From NCBI GenBank assembly GCA_022562855.1, contig JADFON010000013.1, positions 1-13,891 of the forward strand: a stretch of DNA of 13,891 nucleotides. Reading direction: 5' to 3'. Source of the stretch: Candidatus Zhuqueibacterota bacterium (GTDB lineage: Bacteria > SM23-31). Both the position numbers and the translations under genes were made by a program. Below the pieces are notes generated by a model. The model worked only from the letters and a program-made list of their open reading frames with translations. It made no database searches and had not been told where the DNA came from. Position 1 is the stretch's first letter, and each line of letters starts with the position of its first letter. Below, piece by piece: positions 76 through 9,688 of this stretch.

Positions 76-1335
76 ATGCCAGCAAGTAAATCCTCATCGA
101 TCATTCCTGATAATAGTCACGAAATATTCAATTTATATTTTCCATCCGGGTTAAAATGTACCGTCAGTCCCGGTCGGTCAAAAGAAGAAAAACTTATAGC
201 CATTACTTCGAAACTGGTTTATCCGGGATTAGTTATTACTCCCGATGACGACCAGGTCCGGTTTATATCCGAATGCCTTGAAAAAACAAAGGTCATTTGT
301 GTTTCCGTCTGCCTCGACAATGATCCGGAAGAGAATCTTGAAATAATTAATTCCTTTATTTCGGGCAAAGCAGACGTACTATTAATCGACAGCTCAACCG
401 CTGAAAATTTGCCGGAATTTTCATGTAATTATATTATCCATTGGATGTTGCCGGTTTCGGTTAAAGACTATGTAAGAGATTTTCGTTTTTTGAAAAAGTC
501 ATCAATGGAAAAATATGCAGTTTTATTATACGACCCGGCGGACAGGTATTTCCAGGAAAACATCATTTCCCTGCGGTACGGCTCCTCGAAGGATATACAA
601 AGGCGGATGCTCGCAGACCTGGACGAAATGGAGGAATACACTCAAACTTCCTTGTGCCGAATACACTTTCTGCACAAGGCGCTCGGAGTAGAAGAACCGT
701 TAAAAGAATGCGGAAATTGTGATAATTGTAGAAAATCTCTTGCAAAACAATCGCTCGGAGATAATGACAGGGAAACCTTCACTATACTTTTAACGTGCAT
801 AACGGAAACGAGAGAAAAGTTTGGTGTTCAAACACTATCCGACGTTATCAAGGGAACAAAATCCGGTCGAATCACTGAATATCGATTAGACCGTGCGACC
901 ACATTTGGCACGCTTCGAGACCTGAAACGAAAGGATATTAAGAAACTCTTTGACCGGCTTATCCATCTTGGATATTGTAAACGTACATCAGGCACGTATC
1001 CGTCACTTTATTTAACCTCTTTGGGGAAAAGATTTACCGGTAATATACCTTTTCAGGTGCTTGAGTTACCGAAAAAAATGTCGGTAAACCAGGACGAACA
1101 TTTAGATATGGTTTTGTTTGAAGCAGTAAGGAACTATCGAAGAGGGGAGGCAAAACTTCTCAATATATCCGCTTTTATGGTGTTTCCGGACCGGGTATTG
1201 AAAGAAATCGTAAAACTACAGCCTCAAACTCAAAAGGAATTAAAAACTGTAAAAGGGTTTGGAGAAAAATCGTGGGATTTATGCGGAGAAGGATTGTTGA
1301 AAGTTGTACGAAGGCATAGAGCGGAAACGATATAA
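76..1335 (+). CDS. RecQ-like protein lacking an active helicase core (degenerate RecA2, zinc, winged helix, HRDC)
   Basis: The protein aligns by eye to the C-terminal two thirds of RecQ DNA helicases. Residues about 35-165 follow the second RecA-like domain (ending with a LLYDPAD segment like E. coli RecQ's FYDPAD), but motif V (normally ATxAFGMGI) reads IDSSTAENL and motif VI (QExGRAGRDG) is replaced by VRDFRFLKKSS, so the arginine finger is gone. The first RecA domain with Walker A and DEAH boxes is absent. The rest is well kept: four zinc-ligand cysteines (C194, C212, C215, C218; ECGNCDNC), an RQC winged helix (about 228-325) and an HRDC domain (about 343-418, with VKGFGEKSWDLCGEGLL). This suggests DNA binding without ATP-driven unwinding. 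ATG 76 is chosen; TTG 73 is the alternative. An in-frame stop at 25-27 and no RecQ-like residues in any frame of bases 1-72 argue against a recent local frameshift. No clear Shine-Dalgarno is seen. It could be a decayed gene, but the long open frame says otherwise. Confidence 0.85.
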   Translation: MPASKSSSIIPDNSHEIFNLYFPSGLKCTVSPGRSKEEKLIAITSKLVYPGLVITPDDDQVRFISECLEKTKVICVSVCLDNDPEENLEIINSFISGKADVLLIDSSTAENLPEFSCNYIIHWMLPVSVKDYVRDFRFLKKSSMEKYAVLLYDPADRYFQENIISLRYGSSKDIQRRMLADLDEMEEYTQTSLCRIHFLHKALGVEEPLKECGNCDNCRKSLAKQSLGDNDRETFTILLTCITETREKFGVQTLSDVIKGTKSGRITEYRLDRATTFGTLRDLKRKDIKKLFDRLIHLGYCKRTSGTYPSLYLTSLGKRFTGNIPFQVLELPKKMSVNQDEHLDMVLFEAVRNYRRGEAKLLNISAFMVFPDRVLKEIVKLQPQTQKELKTVKGFGEKSWDLCGEGLLKVVRRHRAETI

Positions 1336-1360: not shown

Positions 1361-1720
1361 TTATCTTCGTACTCTCGACGCTCCGCCTGCAGGAGTTCTT
1401 GTCGGTTCATCGTCCCATAATAATTTTCGCTTAATGGGACTTGGTAAATTCAAAGAGTAAATCGATCCGAAAAGGTCGTCCACAGTTGAAATTTTCTTAC
1501 GTATAACAATGTTCCTGAGATAGATCACTTCCTTTTGGCTCATCTTTTTCTCTTTGCATAATTGGGTAAACCAAGCCCATTTTTTGCTGTCGGTGTAATA
1601 AAGATACGACTTGTAAGCAATGAAAATTGCGACTGCCGCTAAAATAAGGTAAACAAAAATATCAATAAAAAGAGAACCGGATCCACCGCCAATTTGAAAA
1701 TCTCTAAAGTTACCTCCCAC
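1361..1720 (-). CDS. small single-pass membrane protein, function unknown
   Basis: This is a 119-residue protein with a Gly-rich N-terminus, one strongly hydrophobic segment at about 17-41, then a basic cytoplasmic-looking region (KKWAWFTQLCKEKKMSQKE) and a short Arg-rich tail. The start is GTG 1720, supported by a perfect AGGAGG about 8 nt upstream. The pattern of one helix, then a charged helical stretch with 'S-x-K-E-V-x-x-L' and a 'DDLFGSIYSLNLP' segment resembles, from memory, the N-terminal part of membrane-anchored PilZ-type proteins found near flagellar genes. No PilZ domain follows here, so that link is weak. It converges on the RecQ-like gene with only 25 bp between stops and no visible terminator. 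The coding call is good; the function is unknown. Confidence 0.72.
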   Translation of the reverse strand: MGGNFRDFQIGGGSGSLFIDIFVYLILAAVAIFIAYKSYLYYTDSKKWAWFTQLCKEKKMSQKEVIYLRNIVIRKKISTVDDLFGSIYSLNLPSPIKRKLLWDDEPTRTPAGGASRVRR

Positions 1721-2043: not shown

Positions 2044-3099
2044 TTAGTTTTTCTTTTTTACGACCTTTCTTTTTGGAGTATTCTTTTTTACGGGTTGTTT
2101 TGCTTTGCTGCTTCCTCCGGAATTTTTGGATTTACCGCCTGATCTTGTCTCCGTTTTTGTGCTTGTTTCACGCGAACGGCTTTTCGTTTTAGAGAAAATA
2201 GAACCTATGCGGGACAGAAACGAACTACCTTTGTCCCTCCTGTTTTTATTTTTCTCTACACGAGCAGTCCGGTTTCCTGTCGATGATCCTTTTTCAACTG
2301 TTACCGGTCTTCTTTCAGTAATCCGTTCTTTAGCTTGAGTTCCGGTTCTTGCAGCCTCCCGACTGTTACTTCCCCCATTTCTTGAATCAATACCCGGATT
2401 TTTCTTCGTCTGAGTATCCTTCGTTACGGTTCTCCTGCGGTTTTCAGGTTTATTAACATTTCCGCTGTCTTTTTGAAGCGGGCTGCGTGTCTTTTCCAGA
2501 TCGCCGCTTTTCTTGACTGTTTCAGGTTTGAAAGTGTACCGGTTTTCCTCTTTCCCCCTGTAACGGACGCGTTCATTTGTGGCATTCCCAAGCCCGTTTC
2601 TTTGAAACTCCCTTTTTTTCCTCTCAACTTCGTAAGAAATGTACCTTCCGTCATTCTTGAACCGGTACCTGCTCACAACGGGTACATAAATCGGTTCATA
2701 TGCCCAGTTAAAACAGTGGTGCATATAATGATCGAACACATAAAAACCGTAATGATTTCTCACAATAGGTGCGCAATAACAATGATTTGCATAGCATCTT
2801 GGATGCCAGATATGGCAGAAATCACACCAATAGCAATATACTCCTCCAAGTACTATGGTCGTTCCTATCCATATTTCTGTGCTTGTTGTGGCTACGACGC
2901 CCCTTGAATTGTCATAGGTATCGATATACGTATTTATCTTTTGATTAGACCTGTCCCTTGAGGGACGGCTTACGCCATCGGTAATGACTGTTTTTTGAGA
3001 GATAACAACGCCACGGCGATATTGGAGGTAGGCGGTGTTACAACCGGAAACCAAAATCAACAGGGCTAATAGACCCGCAAATAATCTGTAATTTCTCAT
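2044..3099 (-). CDS. Cys/His-rich lipoprotein with highly basic disordered C-terminal half
   Basis: Start ATG 3099 is chosen over the longer frame (to 3129): it gives a proper lipoprotein signal (MRNYRLFAG, hydrophobic core, lipobox LVSGC with Cys20) and has GAAGGGG 7 nt upstream. The 351-residue protein has three parts: residues 21-80, polar; about 80-130, a hydrophobic stretch followed by a dense cluster of cysteines (89, 92, 95, 102, 107, 109, 129) mixed with His, Trp and Tyr; and from about 150 to the end, a low-complexity region very rich in Lys, Arg, Ser and Thr ending KKNTPKRKVVKKKN. The cluster could bind a metal or form disulfides outside the membrane; the basic tail could bind polyanions such as LPS, peptidoglycan or DNA. 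I do not recognise the family. It follows the FN3 lipoprotein gene by 74 bp and probably shares its transcript, which ends at the terminator 54 bp downstream. Confidence 0.8.
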   Translation of the reverse strand: MRNYRLFAGLLALLILVSGCNTAYLQYRRGVVISQKTVITDGVSRPSRDRSNQKINTYIDTYDNSRGVVATTSTEIWIGTTIVLGGVYCYWCDFCHIWHPRCYANHCYCAPIVRNHYGFYVFDHYMHHCFNWAYEPIYVPVVSRYRFKNDGRYISYEVERKKREFQRNGLGNATNERVRYRGKEENRYTFKPETVKKSGDLEKTRSPLQKDSGNVNKPENRRRTVTKDTQTKKNPGIDSRNGGSNSREAARTGTQAKERITERRPVTVEKGSSTGNRTARVEKNKNRRDKGSSFLSRIGSIFSKTKSRSRETSTKTETRSGGKSKNSGGSSKAKQPVKKNTPKRKVVKKKN

Positions 3100-3173
3100 T
3101 ATTTTACCCCTTCGATTGATGATATACATGCATAATACTTCATGGTTTGCTCATTCAAATATATAGTCGGTGA

Positions 3174-5951: not shown

Positions 5952-7664
5952 CTACAAAGCAGGATGTTTTGTATGATGGTCGGTTGCATTCTGGAACGCC
6001 CTGGCAACCGTTATCATTTCCGCGTCTTTAAACAGGTTCCCGTTAATTCTCAATCCGGTAGGCAAACCGTTTATAAATCCGTGGGGAATTGTCATAGCCG
6101 GATGTCCGGTATGGTTTGTTATACTTGTCGACCCTCCGATATAGACATCGATATCCTTCAGAGCTTTGCTAAAATCCTGCATTAGTATTGTCCTTACGCG
6201 GTTAGCCTGTATATATTCCACCCCAGGAGTAAATCTCCGGACCCTGAACCGGTACGGACGGTTGCTGTTTGACATCGAATCGATCTCGCCGCTGCGGACG
6301 ATGTCGTCGAATACCGCCGCACCCTCGATATGAAGAACAAAGCCTAAATTGCCGGCTGATATGCTTTGTGGAAATTCGAGGGGAATAAGCTCAATCCCAA
6401 GGGAACGAAAAACTTCAATAGCGGAATTATCGATCTGTCTTTGTTCCCCGGCGCGTCTTCTCCCTTCATCGGTTTGAGCCCTGCTTTCCCGTTCAAAAGA
6501 CGATTTGACGTATCCGACACGGATCTTTGTCAAATCATCGGCGGGATGCCAGTTGAACGGTCTGTTAACGACCGCGGTATCGTAACCGTCCGGACCGTAG
6601 ATGGCATTGAGGACGATAGCGCAATCTTCGGCGGAACGGCATATTGGCCCCACTTTATCCATTGTCCAGCTCAAAGGCATGACGCCGTGCCGGCTGACCA
6701 TTCCGAATGTCGGTCTCAACCCGGTTACACCGCACCGGGAGGAAGGAGATATGATCGATCCCTGAGTTTCCGTACCGATGGAGAAACCGACCAGTCCTGC
6801 GGCGGTTGCCGATCCCGGACCGGCGGACGAACCGCCCGAACCCTGCTCCGTATTCCAGGGGTTTCTCGTCTTGCCGCCAAACCATGTATCGCCTGTCGCA
6901 AGCCCCCCGGAGGTCAGCTTCGCAACAAGTACGGCTCCTGCATTTGTCAGCCGTTTATAGACCGTCGCATCTGTGTCGATAACCTGGTTTTTGTATGGTT
7001 CAGCGCCCCATGTTGTCCGGTATCCTTTTACCGCTATGAGGTCTTTTACGCCCCAGGGGATGCCGTGCAGCGGTCCCTTGTAATTGCCTGCCGAGATTTC
7101 CTCGTCCGCTTTGCTTGCTTGCTCAAGAGCAAGTTTCTCAGTAAGGGTTATAACACATTTTAGTTTCGGGTCGTACTGCTTCAAGCGGGATAAGTATATC
7201 TTTGTAAGGTCTGTCGAGGTCACCTGGCGTGTTTTGATTAGGGCGCTTAAATATGTAACGGACAAAAAGGCAAGCTCTTCTTCGGTATTCGGCATAGTCA
7301 CCGAAACGCTGCTTGTTATTGACGGGTTTCGTTCCGGTTCTATTTCTTCAAATCCGGGAGGGACCGGGTTAAATACAAAACAGGGGGCAACACTTGCGTC
7401 GAGTTTCATTGCACGGATGTTTTGATAGTTGGTCCTGAGCCTGTTCAAATCCCGCACAAACCTTTCCCGCATATCTTCCGGGAACGATAATCCGGCGATT
7501 TTTTCAGCAGCGATAACCATATCGACCGTGATTTCGTCCGCATCCTGTGCAACTGCGACTAAGGTTCCCGGCAAAAGGGTAGCGCCGAGACCTATGGACG
7601 AAAAATAAGCCATGAACTTTCTTCTGTTCATGGCTAATTTTTTAGAGCTCACTTTTTTTGTCAT
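5952..7664 (-). CDS. Tat-exported amidase-signature family hydrolase (copy 1)
   Basis: This is an amidase-signature enzyme, a family that hydrolyses amide bonds (relatives include GatA, peptide amidases and aryl acylamidases). The catalytic triad is visible: Lys207 (GIPWGVKDL), cis-Ser279 (GSGGSSAGPGSA) and nucleophile Ser303 (GTETQGSIISP), with the family's usual 24-residue gap between the two serines. The N-terminus has a twin-arginine signal (NRRKFM, then a hydrophobic stretch to about residue 38, VAVAQDA), so it should be exported folded. ATG 7664 has AAGG 7 nt upstream; Met12 would also keep the signal. Residues 42-130 precede the amidase fold as an extra N-terminal region of unknown role. 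It lies downstream of a closely related paralogue on the same strand, 218 bp away, and the two probably arose by tandem duplication. The substrate cannot be told. Unlike GatA, there are no gatB/gatC neighbours, and the export signal rules out tRNA amidation. Confidence 0.92.
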   Translation of the reverse strand: MTKKVSSKKLAMNRRKFMAYFSSIGLGATLLPGTLVAVAQDADEITVDMVIAAEKIAGLSFPEDMRERFVRDLNRLRTNYQNIRAMKLDASVAPCFVFNPVPPGFEEIEPERNPSITSSVSVTMPNTEEELAFLSVTYLSALIKTRQVTSTDLTKIYLSRLKQYDPKLKCVITLTEKLALEQASKADEEISAGNYKGPLHGIPWGVKDLIAVKGYRTTWGAEPYKNQVIDTDATVYKRLTNAGAVLVAKLTSGGLATGDTWFGGKTRNPWNTEQGSGGSSAGPGSATAAGLVGFSIGTETQGSIISPSSRCGVTGLRPTFGMVSRHGVMPLSWTMDKVGPICRSAEDCAIVLNAIYGPDGYDTAVVNRPFNWHPADDLTKIRVGYVKSSFERESRAQTDEGRRRAGEQRQIDNSAIEVFRSLGIELIPLEFPQSISAGNLGFVLHIEGAAVFDDIVRSGEIDSMSNSNRPYRFRVRRFTPGVEYIQANRVRTILMQDFSKALKDIDVYIGGSTSITNHTGHPAMTIPHGFINGLPTGLRINGNLFKDAEMITVARAFQNATDHHTKHPAL

Positions 7665-7882: not shown

Positions 7883-9688
7883 TTACGGCAGGTCCGGGTG
7901 TTTCAAATGGTGATCGGTGTTGTTTTGGAACGCATGAGCCAGTAGTAATATCTCTGTTTCTCCGAATAATTTTCCGGTAAACTGCATGCTTGCCGGCAGA
8001 CCTTGCGCAGTAAAACCGTTGACCACGTTTATCTCCGGATGCCCGGTGAGATTTGTCAGACTCAGGCTGCTGCCGATAAACATGTCGTAATCGGACATAA
8101 ATTCGTTAAACTCTTCAATAATACGCGATCTAAGACGGTTTGCCTGAATATACTCTACTGCGGGAACAAACCTGGCTCGTCTGAATGAAGCGCCCCAACT
8201 GCTTCTTTCGGGTTCACCGTTCATAAGATCGTCACGGTTGTTTCTCGTTAGTTCGTCGAATGCCGCAGCGGCTTCTGTGGTCAAAATGAAACTTATTGCG
8301 CTGGTTGGCAGATCGGGTAATTCAATTGGTTTCAGGTCGACTCCAAGAGAGAGCAATACATTCAAGGCTGCGTCATCGCGTTCTTTTACTGCTTGCCGGC
8401 TCTCGCCGCCGCCTCTTCCACCACGTCCTCCTCTACCTCCGCGACCGCCTCTGCCACCGCGTCCACCCCTTCCCGTAGTTTCGGGAATATCACTTAAATC
8501 CCGGAAGTACCTGTTTTTCAAATATCCCACCCGTAATTTTCGTACGTCTGCGTTTGCATCCCAGTTAAACGGTACATCGATGATTGCGTTATCTTTACCG
8601 TCCGGTCCATAGATGGCATTAAATACCAACGCACAGTCTTCCGCAGACCGGCACATGGGTCCTATTTTGTCCATTGTCCAGCTTAGCGCCATTGCCCCGG
8701 CACGGCTGACACGGCCGAACGTGGGTCGTAAACCGATGACGCCATTCCTTCTGGACGGCGATATTATTGAGCCTTGTGTTTCGGTGCCGATGGCGAAACC
8801 GACAAGCCCTGCCGCAGTGGCAGAACCCGGACCCGCAGAAGAACCGCTGGAGCCGCTTTCCATATCCCATGGATTTCTTGTTCTTCCGCCAAACCACCTG
8901 TCACCCTGGGCTAATGCGCCCATACTCAATTTTGCGACCAGGACAGCGCCTGCTTCGGTCAACTTTGTGTACACAGCTGCATCTGCGTCTATTACCTGGT
9001 CTTTGTACGCTGACGACCCCCAGGTTGTCCGGTATCCTCTGACTGCCAGTAGATCTTTGGCGCCCCAGGGAATTCCATGCAGGGGTCCCCGGTAAATACC
9101 GGCGGCAATCTCTTCATCCGCTTTTTTGGCTTGTCTGAGCGCCAGGTCATCGGTAAAAGAAACGACGCAAAATAACTGCGGGTTGTATTTTCTTAATCTC
9201 GAAAGATATAATTTGGTCAGGTCGGTTGAAGTGATTTCACGATTCTTGATCAGTTTGGCAAGATGCGTGACCGGCAGAAACGCAAGGTCTTTGTCCGTAG
9301 CCGGTTTCGACACCTCAACATCGCTCATGATAAACGGTTTTCTCGCTGTCGGCAGTTTGTATCCCGGCGGAAGCGGATTAAAGACAATTGCTGACAGCGT
9401 ACTGTTTCCCAGGTTTGCTTCCCTGATTTGCTCGTACTGCCTGAGATAACTCCGGTTACCGTTGAGGCTTTCTACAATCTCTTCCATTTCTTCCTGAGTC
9501 ATCGTTAGACCGGCGATTTTAGCGGCTGCGTTTACCATTTCTACGGTAATTTCACTTGCATCTTGCGCAACAGCGGTCAAAGCGCCCGGTAAAAGGGTAG
9601 CGCCCAGACCGATTGCTGAGAAGTACTTTACAAAACGACGTCTGTTCAATGAAAATCGTTTTGATTCGGTGGTGTTATTGTCTGCCAT
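7883..9688 (-). CDS. Tat-exported amidase-signature family hydrolase with RGG-repeat insert (copy 2)
   Basis: A paralogue of the downstream amidase, sharing the same architecture: a twin-arginine signal (SLNRRRFVKYF, then a hydrophobic run to AVAQDA), an N-terminal extra region, and the amidase fold with Lys211 (GIPWGAKDL), cis-Ser283 (GSSGSSAGPGSA) and nucleophile Ser307 (GTETQGSIISP). ATG 9688 has AAAGG 7 nt upstream. Residues 406-428 are a pure Gly/Arg tract: seven RGG units placed between the catalytic core and the C-terminal part, where the paralogue has a short, unrelated Arg-rich polar linker. Codons in the tract vary (Arg as AGG, CGC, AGA and CGT; Gly as GGT, GGA and GGC), so it is not a fresh slippage product. 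A sigma-70-like promoter lies just upstream. The substrate is unknown; the location is expected to be periplasmic or membrane-attached through an uncleaved signal. Confidence 0.92.
   Translation of the reverse strand: MADNNTTESKRFSLNRRRFVKYFSAIGLGATLLPGALTAVAQDASEITVEMVNAAAKIAGLTMTQEEMEEIVESLNGNRSYLRQYEQIREANLGNSTLSAIVFNPLPPGYKLPTARKPFIMSDVEVSKPATDKDLAFLPVTHLAKLIKNREITSTDLTKLYLSRLRKYNPQLFCVVSFTDDLALRQAKKADEEIAAGIYRGPLHGIPWGAKDLLAVRGYRTTWGSSAYKDQVIDADAAVYTKLTEAGAVLVAKLSMGALAQGDRWFGGRTRNPWDMESGSSGSSAGPGSATAAGLVGFAIGTETQGSIISPSRRNGVIGLRPTFGRVSRAGAMALSWTMDKIGPMCRSAEDCALVFNAIYGPDGKDNAIIDVPFNWDANADVRKLRVGYLKNRYFRDLSDIPETTGRGGRGGRGGRGGRGGRGGRGGGESRQAVKERDDAALNVLLSLGVDLKPIELPDLPTSAISFILTTEAAAAFDELTRNNRDDLMNGEPERSSWGASFRRARFVPAVEYIQANRLRSRIIEEFNEFMSDYDMFIGSSLSLTNLTGHPEINVVNGFTAQGLPASMQFTGKLFGETEILLLAHAFQNNTDHHLKHPDLP
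8405..8473 (-). repeat. tandem RGG-coding repeat inside the amidase gene
   Basis: These 69 bases encode G, then seven Arg-Gly-Gly units, then G (residues 406-428). The 9-base units differ mainly at synonymous positions, so the protein repeat is better kept than the DNA repeat. Confidence 0.9.

Follow-up and report, generated by a model that had tools for sequence, protein, structure and literature searches.

An SF2 helicase that lacks Walker A, DEAH and its arginine fingers is not expected to show ATP-driven translocation. The work of the RecQ accessory domains has so far been approached through truncated E. coli and human constructs and through helicase-dead RECQL4 mice. The HRDC domain senses DNA geometry (PMC6773442, PMC4464074), and an alanine mutant of Y555 in the HRDC of E. 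coli RecQ loses ssDNA binding (PMC4464074). ATP-independent function in the RecQ family has precedents in Recql4 K525A mice (PMC6636780) and in a helicase-less RECQL4 fragment (PMC13076768).

We analyzed a 13,891-nucleotide stretch of DNA (henceforth the window) that makes up an entire contig (G000:C367) of a fragmented 2.5-Mb genome, 80% complete. It carries a RecQ-like gene whose ATG lies 75 bases from the contig start and whose product has lost its helicase motor. We consider it likely that the gene encodes a conserved, phylum-specific RecQ pseudohelicase that binds DNA independently of ATP at forks, junctions or single/double-strand boundaries. A phylum-specific bacterial RecQ pseudohelicase of this form is apparently undescribed: a literature search, which reached few subscription journals and is weak evidence, returned no paper on RQC-minor, a RecQ pseudohelicase or an HRDC pseudo-helicase.

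Domain content and predicted structure

The gene and its surroundings have the following features (coordinates within the window):

76 to 1335, forward strand: motorless RecQ-like gene, 419 aa, ATG at 76, stop at 1333-1335
151 to 540, forward strand: RecA2-like remnant, aa ~26-155, predicted alpha/beta fold, motifs V and VI replaced
541 to 732, forward strand: RecQ zinc-binding domain, aa 156-219, with Cys 194, 212, 215 and 218
787 to 1038, forward strand: RQC winged-helix domain, aa 238-321, basic
1111 to 1308, forward strand: HRDC domain, aa 346-411, basic
1361 to 1720, reverse strand: small membrane protein, convergent, 119 aa, without Pfam match

The open reading frame has no internal stops, and a TTG at 73 is a possible alternative start. 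Further along the window, ORF 2044-3129 encodes a 361-aa lipoprotein-like protein without Pfam match that has a Cys/His/Trp/Tyr-rich stretch and a long Arg/Lys/Ser-rich tail. Two tandem paralogous Amidase-family genes (5952-7664 and 7883-9688) both have twin-arginine-like N-termini (AMNRRKFMAYF and SLNRRRFVKYF), and the second contains a glycine/arginine-rich insert of the GRGGRGG type, with a DNA repeat at 8409-8461.

The original prediction, made from the sequence alone, described zinc, winged-helix and HRDC regions in the order of RecQ with the zinc cysteines kept. Pfam matches above the curated cut-offs agree with it: RecQ_Zn_bind at residues 156-219 (PF16124; E 1e-7; 32.8 bits against 25), RQC at 238-321 (PF09382; E 5e-18; 65.5 bits against 23) and HRDC at 346-411 (PF00570; E 2e-14; 53.7 bits against 23.8) follow one another as in RecQ, and all four zinc cysteines (C194, C212, C215 and C218) are present. 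The prediction also held that the first RecA domain is missing and that motifs V and VI of the second have been replaced. This is what we found. Neither DEAD nor Helicase_C matched the window protein in Pfam, the RecA1 domain with motifs 0-III (Walker A, DEAH) is absent, and the motif alignment showed that RecA2 motifs V and VI, with their arginine fingers, are replaced in the window protein and in its four relatives described below. In the window protein, motif V reads LLIDSSTAENLPEF (canonical ATxAFGMGIDKP) and motif VI reads YVRDFRFLKKSS (canonical YYQExGRAGRDG), and motif IV residues are partly retained in the RecA2 remnant. With its arginine fingers gone and neither Walker A nor DEAH present, this protein is not expected to translocate with ATP.

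Whole-protein comparisons gave the same picture. Alignment to the NCBIfam recQ model TIGR01389 (591 positions) began only at position 292, and the score of 148.5 bits did not reach the family cut-off of 640.2. With phmmer, the RecQ catalytic cores 1oyw, 4tmu and 4q47 were matched from about residue 113 on. The AlphaFold model, computed from a 12-row alignment of the window protein and RecQs from related loci, has a mean pLDDT of 82.7 and comprises a RecA2-like alpha/beta domain, a Zn domain, a winged helix and an HRDC domain, in keeping with the domain reading; its pTM of 0.52 makes the mutual placement of the domains uncertain. In Foldseek and VIA-align comparisons, the best PDB matches of the model were RecQ cores. 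It aligned with 4tmu at Z 26 over 298 residues with an rmsd of 9 Å, a value probably due to differing domain placement, and with RECQ1 at about 2 Å over 190-200 residues (RecA2 and Zn).

The retained domains bear features relevant to ligand binding. The pI is 4.9 for aa 1-155 (RecA2), 9.8 for aa 225-328 (RQC) and 9.7 for aa 343-419 (HRDC). HRDC residue F367 aligns with E. coli Y555, the ssDNA-binding position, which is F in every related protein that reaches the HRDC and also in some intact RecQs. The position of E. coli R425 in the RQC, which we take to be part of the SSB-binding site of E. coli RecQ, is glutamate in 5/5 motorless proteins, and that of R499 is K/R in those that cover it. Since some RQC contact positions, R425 among them, have changed, partner or DNA contacts may differ.

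The charge reversal at R425, with a basic residue kept at R499, would also suit a protein-binding or regulatory platform for SSB, RNA polymerase or a replication factor, in which DNA binding is secondary or lost. The RecQ winged helix also mediates protein contacts (PMC4464074), and the RecA2 fold has been retained despite the dead motor. We regard such a platform as unlikely, since both RQC and HRDC remain basic and an aromatic residue is kept at the ssDNA-binding position of the HRDC.

Orthologues, gene neighborhood and integrity of the gene

We searched six genomes of the phylum (G000-G005), all incomplete, and found the motorless gene in five. No copy was found in G003 (same class, 83% complete), so the gene may be dispensable. 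The copies in G001 and G002 belong to the same family as the window gene, and those in G004 and G005 to a sister family. The G002 orthologue is complete, lies on a 97-kb contig and has the same short form (421 aa); the G001 orthologue, also short, runs for 282 aa until the contig ends, after the start of the RQC. Orthologues of this form thus exist, and they share a neighborhood. In both genomes the order is PilZ protein, M48-like protease and motorless RecQ; the last two lie 133 bp apart in G001 and 660 bp apart in G002, where the gap contains a short peroxiredoxin-like ORF. The M48 neighbor was not found in the 80% complete G000. A 55% identical orthologue of the small membrane protein at 1361-1720 adjoins the motorless gene in G002. 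In the sister family, the G005 version is complete and full-length (586 aa) and the G004 gene is in two pieces on contigs C148 and C296. An ECF sigma factor-like divergent gene lies beside the start in both G004 (C296) and G005, and the two G004 pieces are therefore better taken as one gene.

The gene begins 75 bases from a contig end in a fragmented genome, as might be expected of an assembly artefact or a decaying pseudogene, that is, a truncated recQ fragment being lost. A RecA1 coding region directly upstream in another frame would have meant a frameshift, and we found none. All three forward frames of the window contain stops within bases 17-35, and therefore no upstream coding region reads into the gene. 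Nor did we recognize a RecA1 remnant between the M48 gene and the orthologue, across 133 bp in G001 and 660 bp in G002. Several further observations speak against decay or artefact: the open frame, the recurrence of the short form across three genera, in proteins 36-49% identical to that of the window, the mid-contig position of one copy (97 kb) and a codon pattern of purifying selection. The gene at 76-1335 is not a pseudogene, and we consider decay or misassembly very improbable.

Other candidates were rejected. Upstream of the G002 gene, tblastn gave a weak RecA1 match (E 0.11). We treated it as chance, since a stop interrupts it and it resembles the end of the adjoining peroxiredoxin-like ORF. 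That ORF (L034, 9271-9525), which lies between the M48 and motorless RecQ genes, is short and apparently truncated. The other TIGR01389 and TIGR00614 matches in G000, considered as a free-standing RecA1 partner, comprise frames that look like a DEAD-box helicase and UvrB, and one frame of 1124 aa. PADLOC DpdF models (Dpd defence system) match the window protein through generic RecQ similarity; NCBIfam DpdF does not match it, no dpd set surrounds the gene, and those window neighbors that Pfam recognizes have flagellar, amidase and transport functions. Viral contigs searched with the clade alignment contained no clade relative, and a viral origin is thus unsupported.

We assessed how unusual the protein is outside the phylum. 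The RQC domain was found in 77 of 386 genomes. Of 76 loci examined outside the phylum, 75 had a usable ORF, and all 75 of these RQC proteins keep motifs I, II and VI. The sole exceptions in the motif alignment are the four clade members included in it; RQC-only frames, e.g., G170:C98 (201 aa), are outside the scope of this comparison. A scan of the genome collection with the window protein, designed for close relatives and with near genomes left out, returned one intact RecQ only.

Selection and probable stepwise motor loss

In an unrooted tree built on the region from RecA2 to HRDC, the five motorless proteins form one clade (support 100/99) in which the short trio is nested (100/100). The clade sample is five sequences, of which one is without its C-terminus and one is spread over two contigs. 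In every pair, differences are most frequent at third, then first, then second codon positions. The dN/dS ratio is ~0.13 for G004/G005, the only pair for which it is given, as dS is saturated for pairs involving short forms. Judged by these codon patterns, the five clade members evolve under purifying selection.

Measured as sequence identity, domain conservation in the clade is inverted relative to normal RecQs, with Zn, RQC and HRDC highest and RecA1 lowest. Identities for RecA1, RecA2, Zn, RQC and HRDC are 43, 57, 75, 70 and 76% for G004/G005; for the window protein and G002 they are 27% (RecA2), 32% (Zn), 36% (RQC) and 51% (HRDC). The corresponding values for the intact pair G027/G057 are 52, 53, 28, 30 and 37%, and other intact RecQ pairs vary, some being flat. 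For the intact phylum pair G001/G004 they are 84, 80, 77, 74 and 52%, the fourth figure being that of a phosphoribosyltransferase insert. The original prediction had argued that retention of the DNA-binding half was selective and not random decay; purifying selection together with the inverted conservation supports that view.

The sister family retains a degenerate motor, as shown by comparison with intact RecQs and E. coli RecQ. Motif I reads MPPSDIKYLCF in G005 and MPPSKDKYICF in the N-terminal piece of G004 (intact MPTGGGKSLCY), so that the lysine is retained in both and the glycines and the next serine are lost. In G005, TESD stands in place of DEAH (motif II), the aromatic-rich loop is deleted, VSNP replaces TATA (motif III), TTREFYRNLIRPD replaces ATxAFGMGIDKPD (motif V), and ETCAAGIDG replaces ETGRAGRDG (motif VI), with the loss of both GRAGRD arginines. 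G004 resembles G005, with degenerate motifs I, II, III, V and VI and the same loop deletion. The window's family has no RecA1 left, and its motifs IV-VI have drifted beyond the G004/G005 state.

These data suggest that a branch of RecQ probably became an ATP-independent binder of DNA structures stepwise, losing the motor motifs and loop first and RecA1 second, as selection shifted to the Zn-RQC-HRDC part. An ancestral full-length RecQ would have lost ATP binding, ATP hydrolysis and the loop that couples ATP to DNA, a state that G004 and G005 would still represent. The whole RecA1 domain would then have been lost in the window's family. The tree being unrooted, the order of motifs first and domain second is the simplest reading of the sequences.

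Function and comparison with known systems

We also considered the intact RecQ of the phylum, found in G001 (845 aa; L027 382-2919, G001:C83) and G004 (839 aa; L022 226-2745, G004:C124). In the G001 copy, which was the one scanned, Pfam matched DEAD, Helicase_C, Zn, PRTase and HRDC, and RQC had no match. Both proteins have a ComF-like phosphoribosyltransferase insert at the usual place of the RQC and a C-terminal HRDC, and an Asp takes the place of the fourth zinc cysteine (CGKCDND).

The intact RqlH-like RecQ, without a recognizable RQC, and the motorless protein look complementary, and the two co-occur in G001 and G004. The motorless protein could accordingly be an accessory subunit that lends its winged helix and HRDC in trans to a separate RecQ motor. 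We find this improbable. The two genes are not neighbors, and G000, G002 and G005 (80, 76 and 70% complete) yielded no intact RecQ; the chance of missing all three would be ~0.014 were an intact RecQ universal. Overall, four of the six phylum genomes (G000, G002, G003 and G005), all incomplete, gave none; therefore a general obligate pairing with an intact RecQ is unlikely. Thus a separate full-length recQ, which the original prediction had suggested looking for, is present in G001 and G004 and was not found in the 80% complete genome of the window itself. The two roles it had proposed, structure-specific binding and partnership with another helicase, stand as plausible readings; a pairing in which an intact RecQ is obligatory lacks support, given the four incomplete genomes without a match.

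On our preferred reading of a pseudohelicase that binds DNA, ATP hydrolysis and DNA unwinding would have been lost in the motorless protein. The basic winged helix and HRDC would hold single/double-strand junctions, forks or D-loops without ATP, and the DNA-bound protein would protect these structures, or recruit or restrain another repair or recombination enzyme. What is left of the RecA2 fold would act as a scaffold or protein-contact surface. If this is true, the phylum holds a bacterial line of RecQ pseudohelicases with an intermediate stage still living, and a direct test of the RecQ accessory domains without the motor becomes possible.

We compared the window protein with described systems. 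Vertebrate RECQL4 (PMC6636780, PMC13076768) is alike in having an essential role without ATP hydrolysis. It differs in that its wild-type motor is intact and replication can be sustained by an N-terminal fragment that lacks the helicase part, and it has no relation to the motorless clade past RecQ ancestry. RQC-minor-1 and RQC-minor-2 (NF041107 and NF041108), named as DNA-binding in NCBIfam, also have an RQC-type winged helix outside an intact motor, but the window protein scores below their cut-offs (24.9 against 115 and 26.3 against 300 bits), and the alignment is confined to the RQC stretch. RqlH-type RecQ with a phosphoribosyltransferase domain (PMC4670107) is resembled by the intact RecQs of G001 and G004, which have an HRDC; these keep the motor and lack the RQC, the reverse of the window protein. 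Bacterial RecQ (E. coli RecQ; TIGR01389; 1oyw and 4tmu) shares with the window protein the RecA2-like fold, the four-Cys Zn domain, the RQC, the HRDC and their order, whereas the window protein has no RecA1 and has lost motifs V and VI, and in the sister-family copies motifs I, II and III are degenerate and the aromatic-rich loop is missing.
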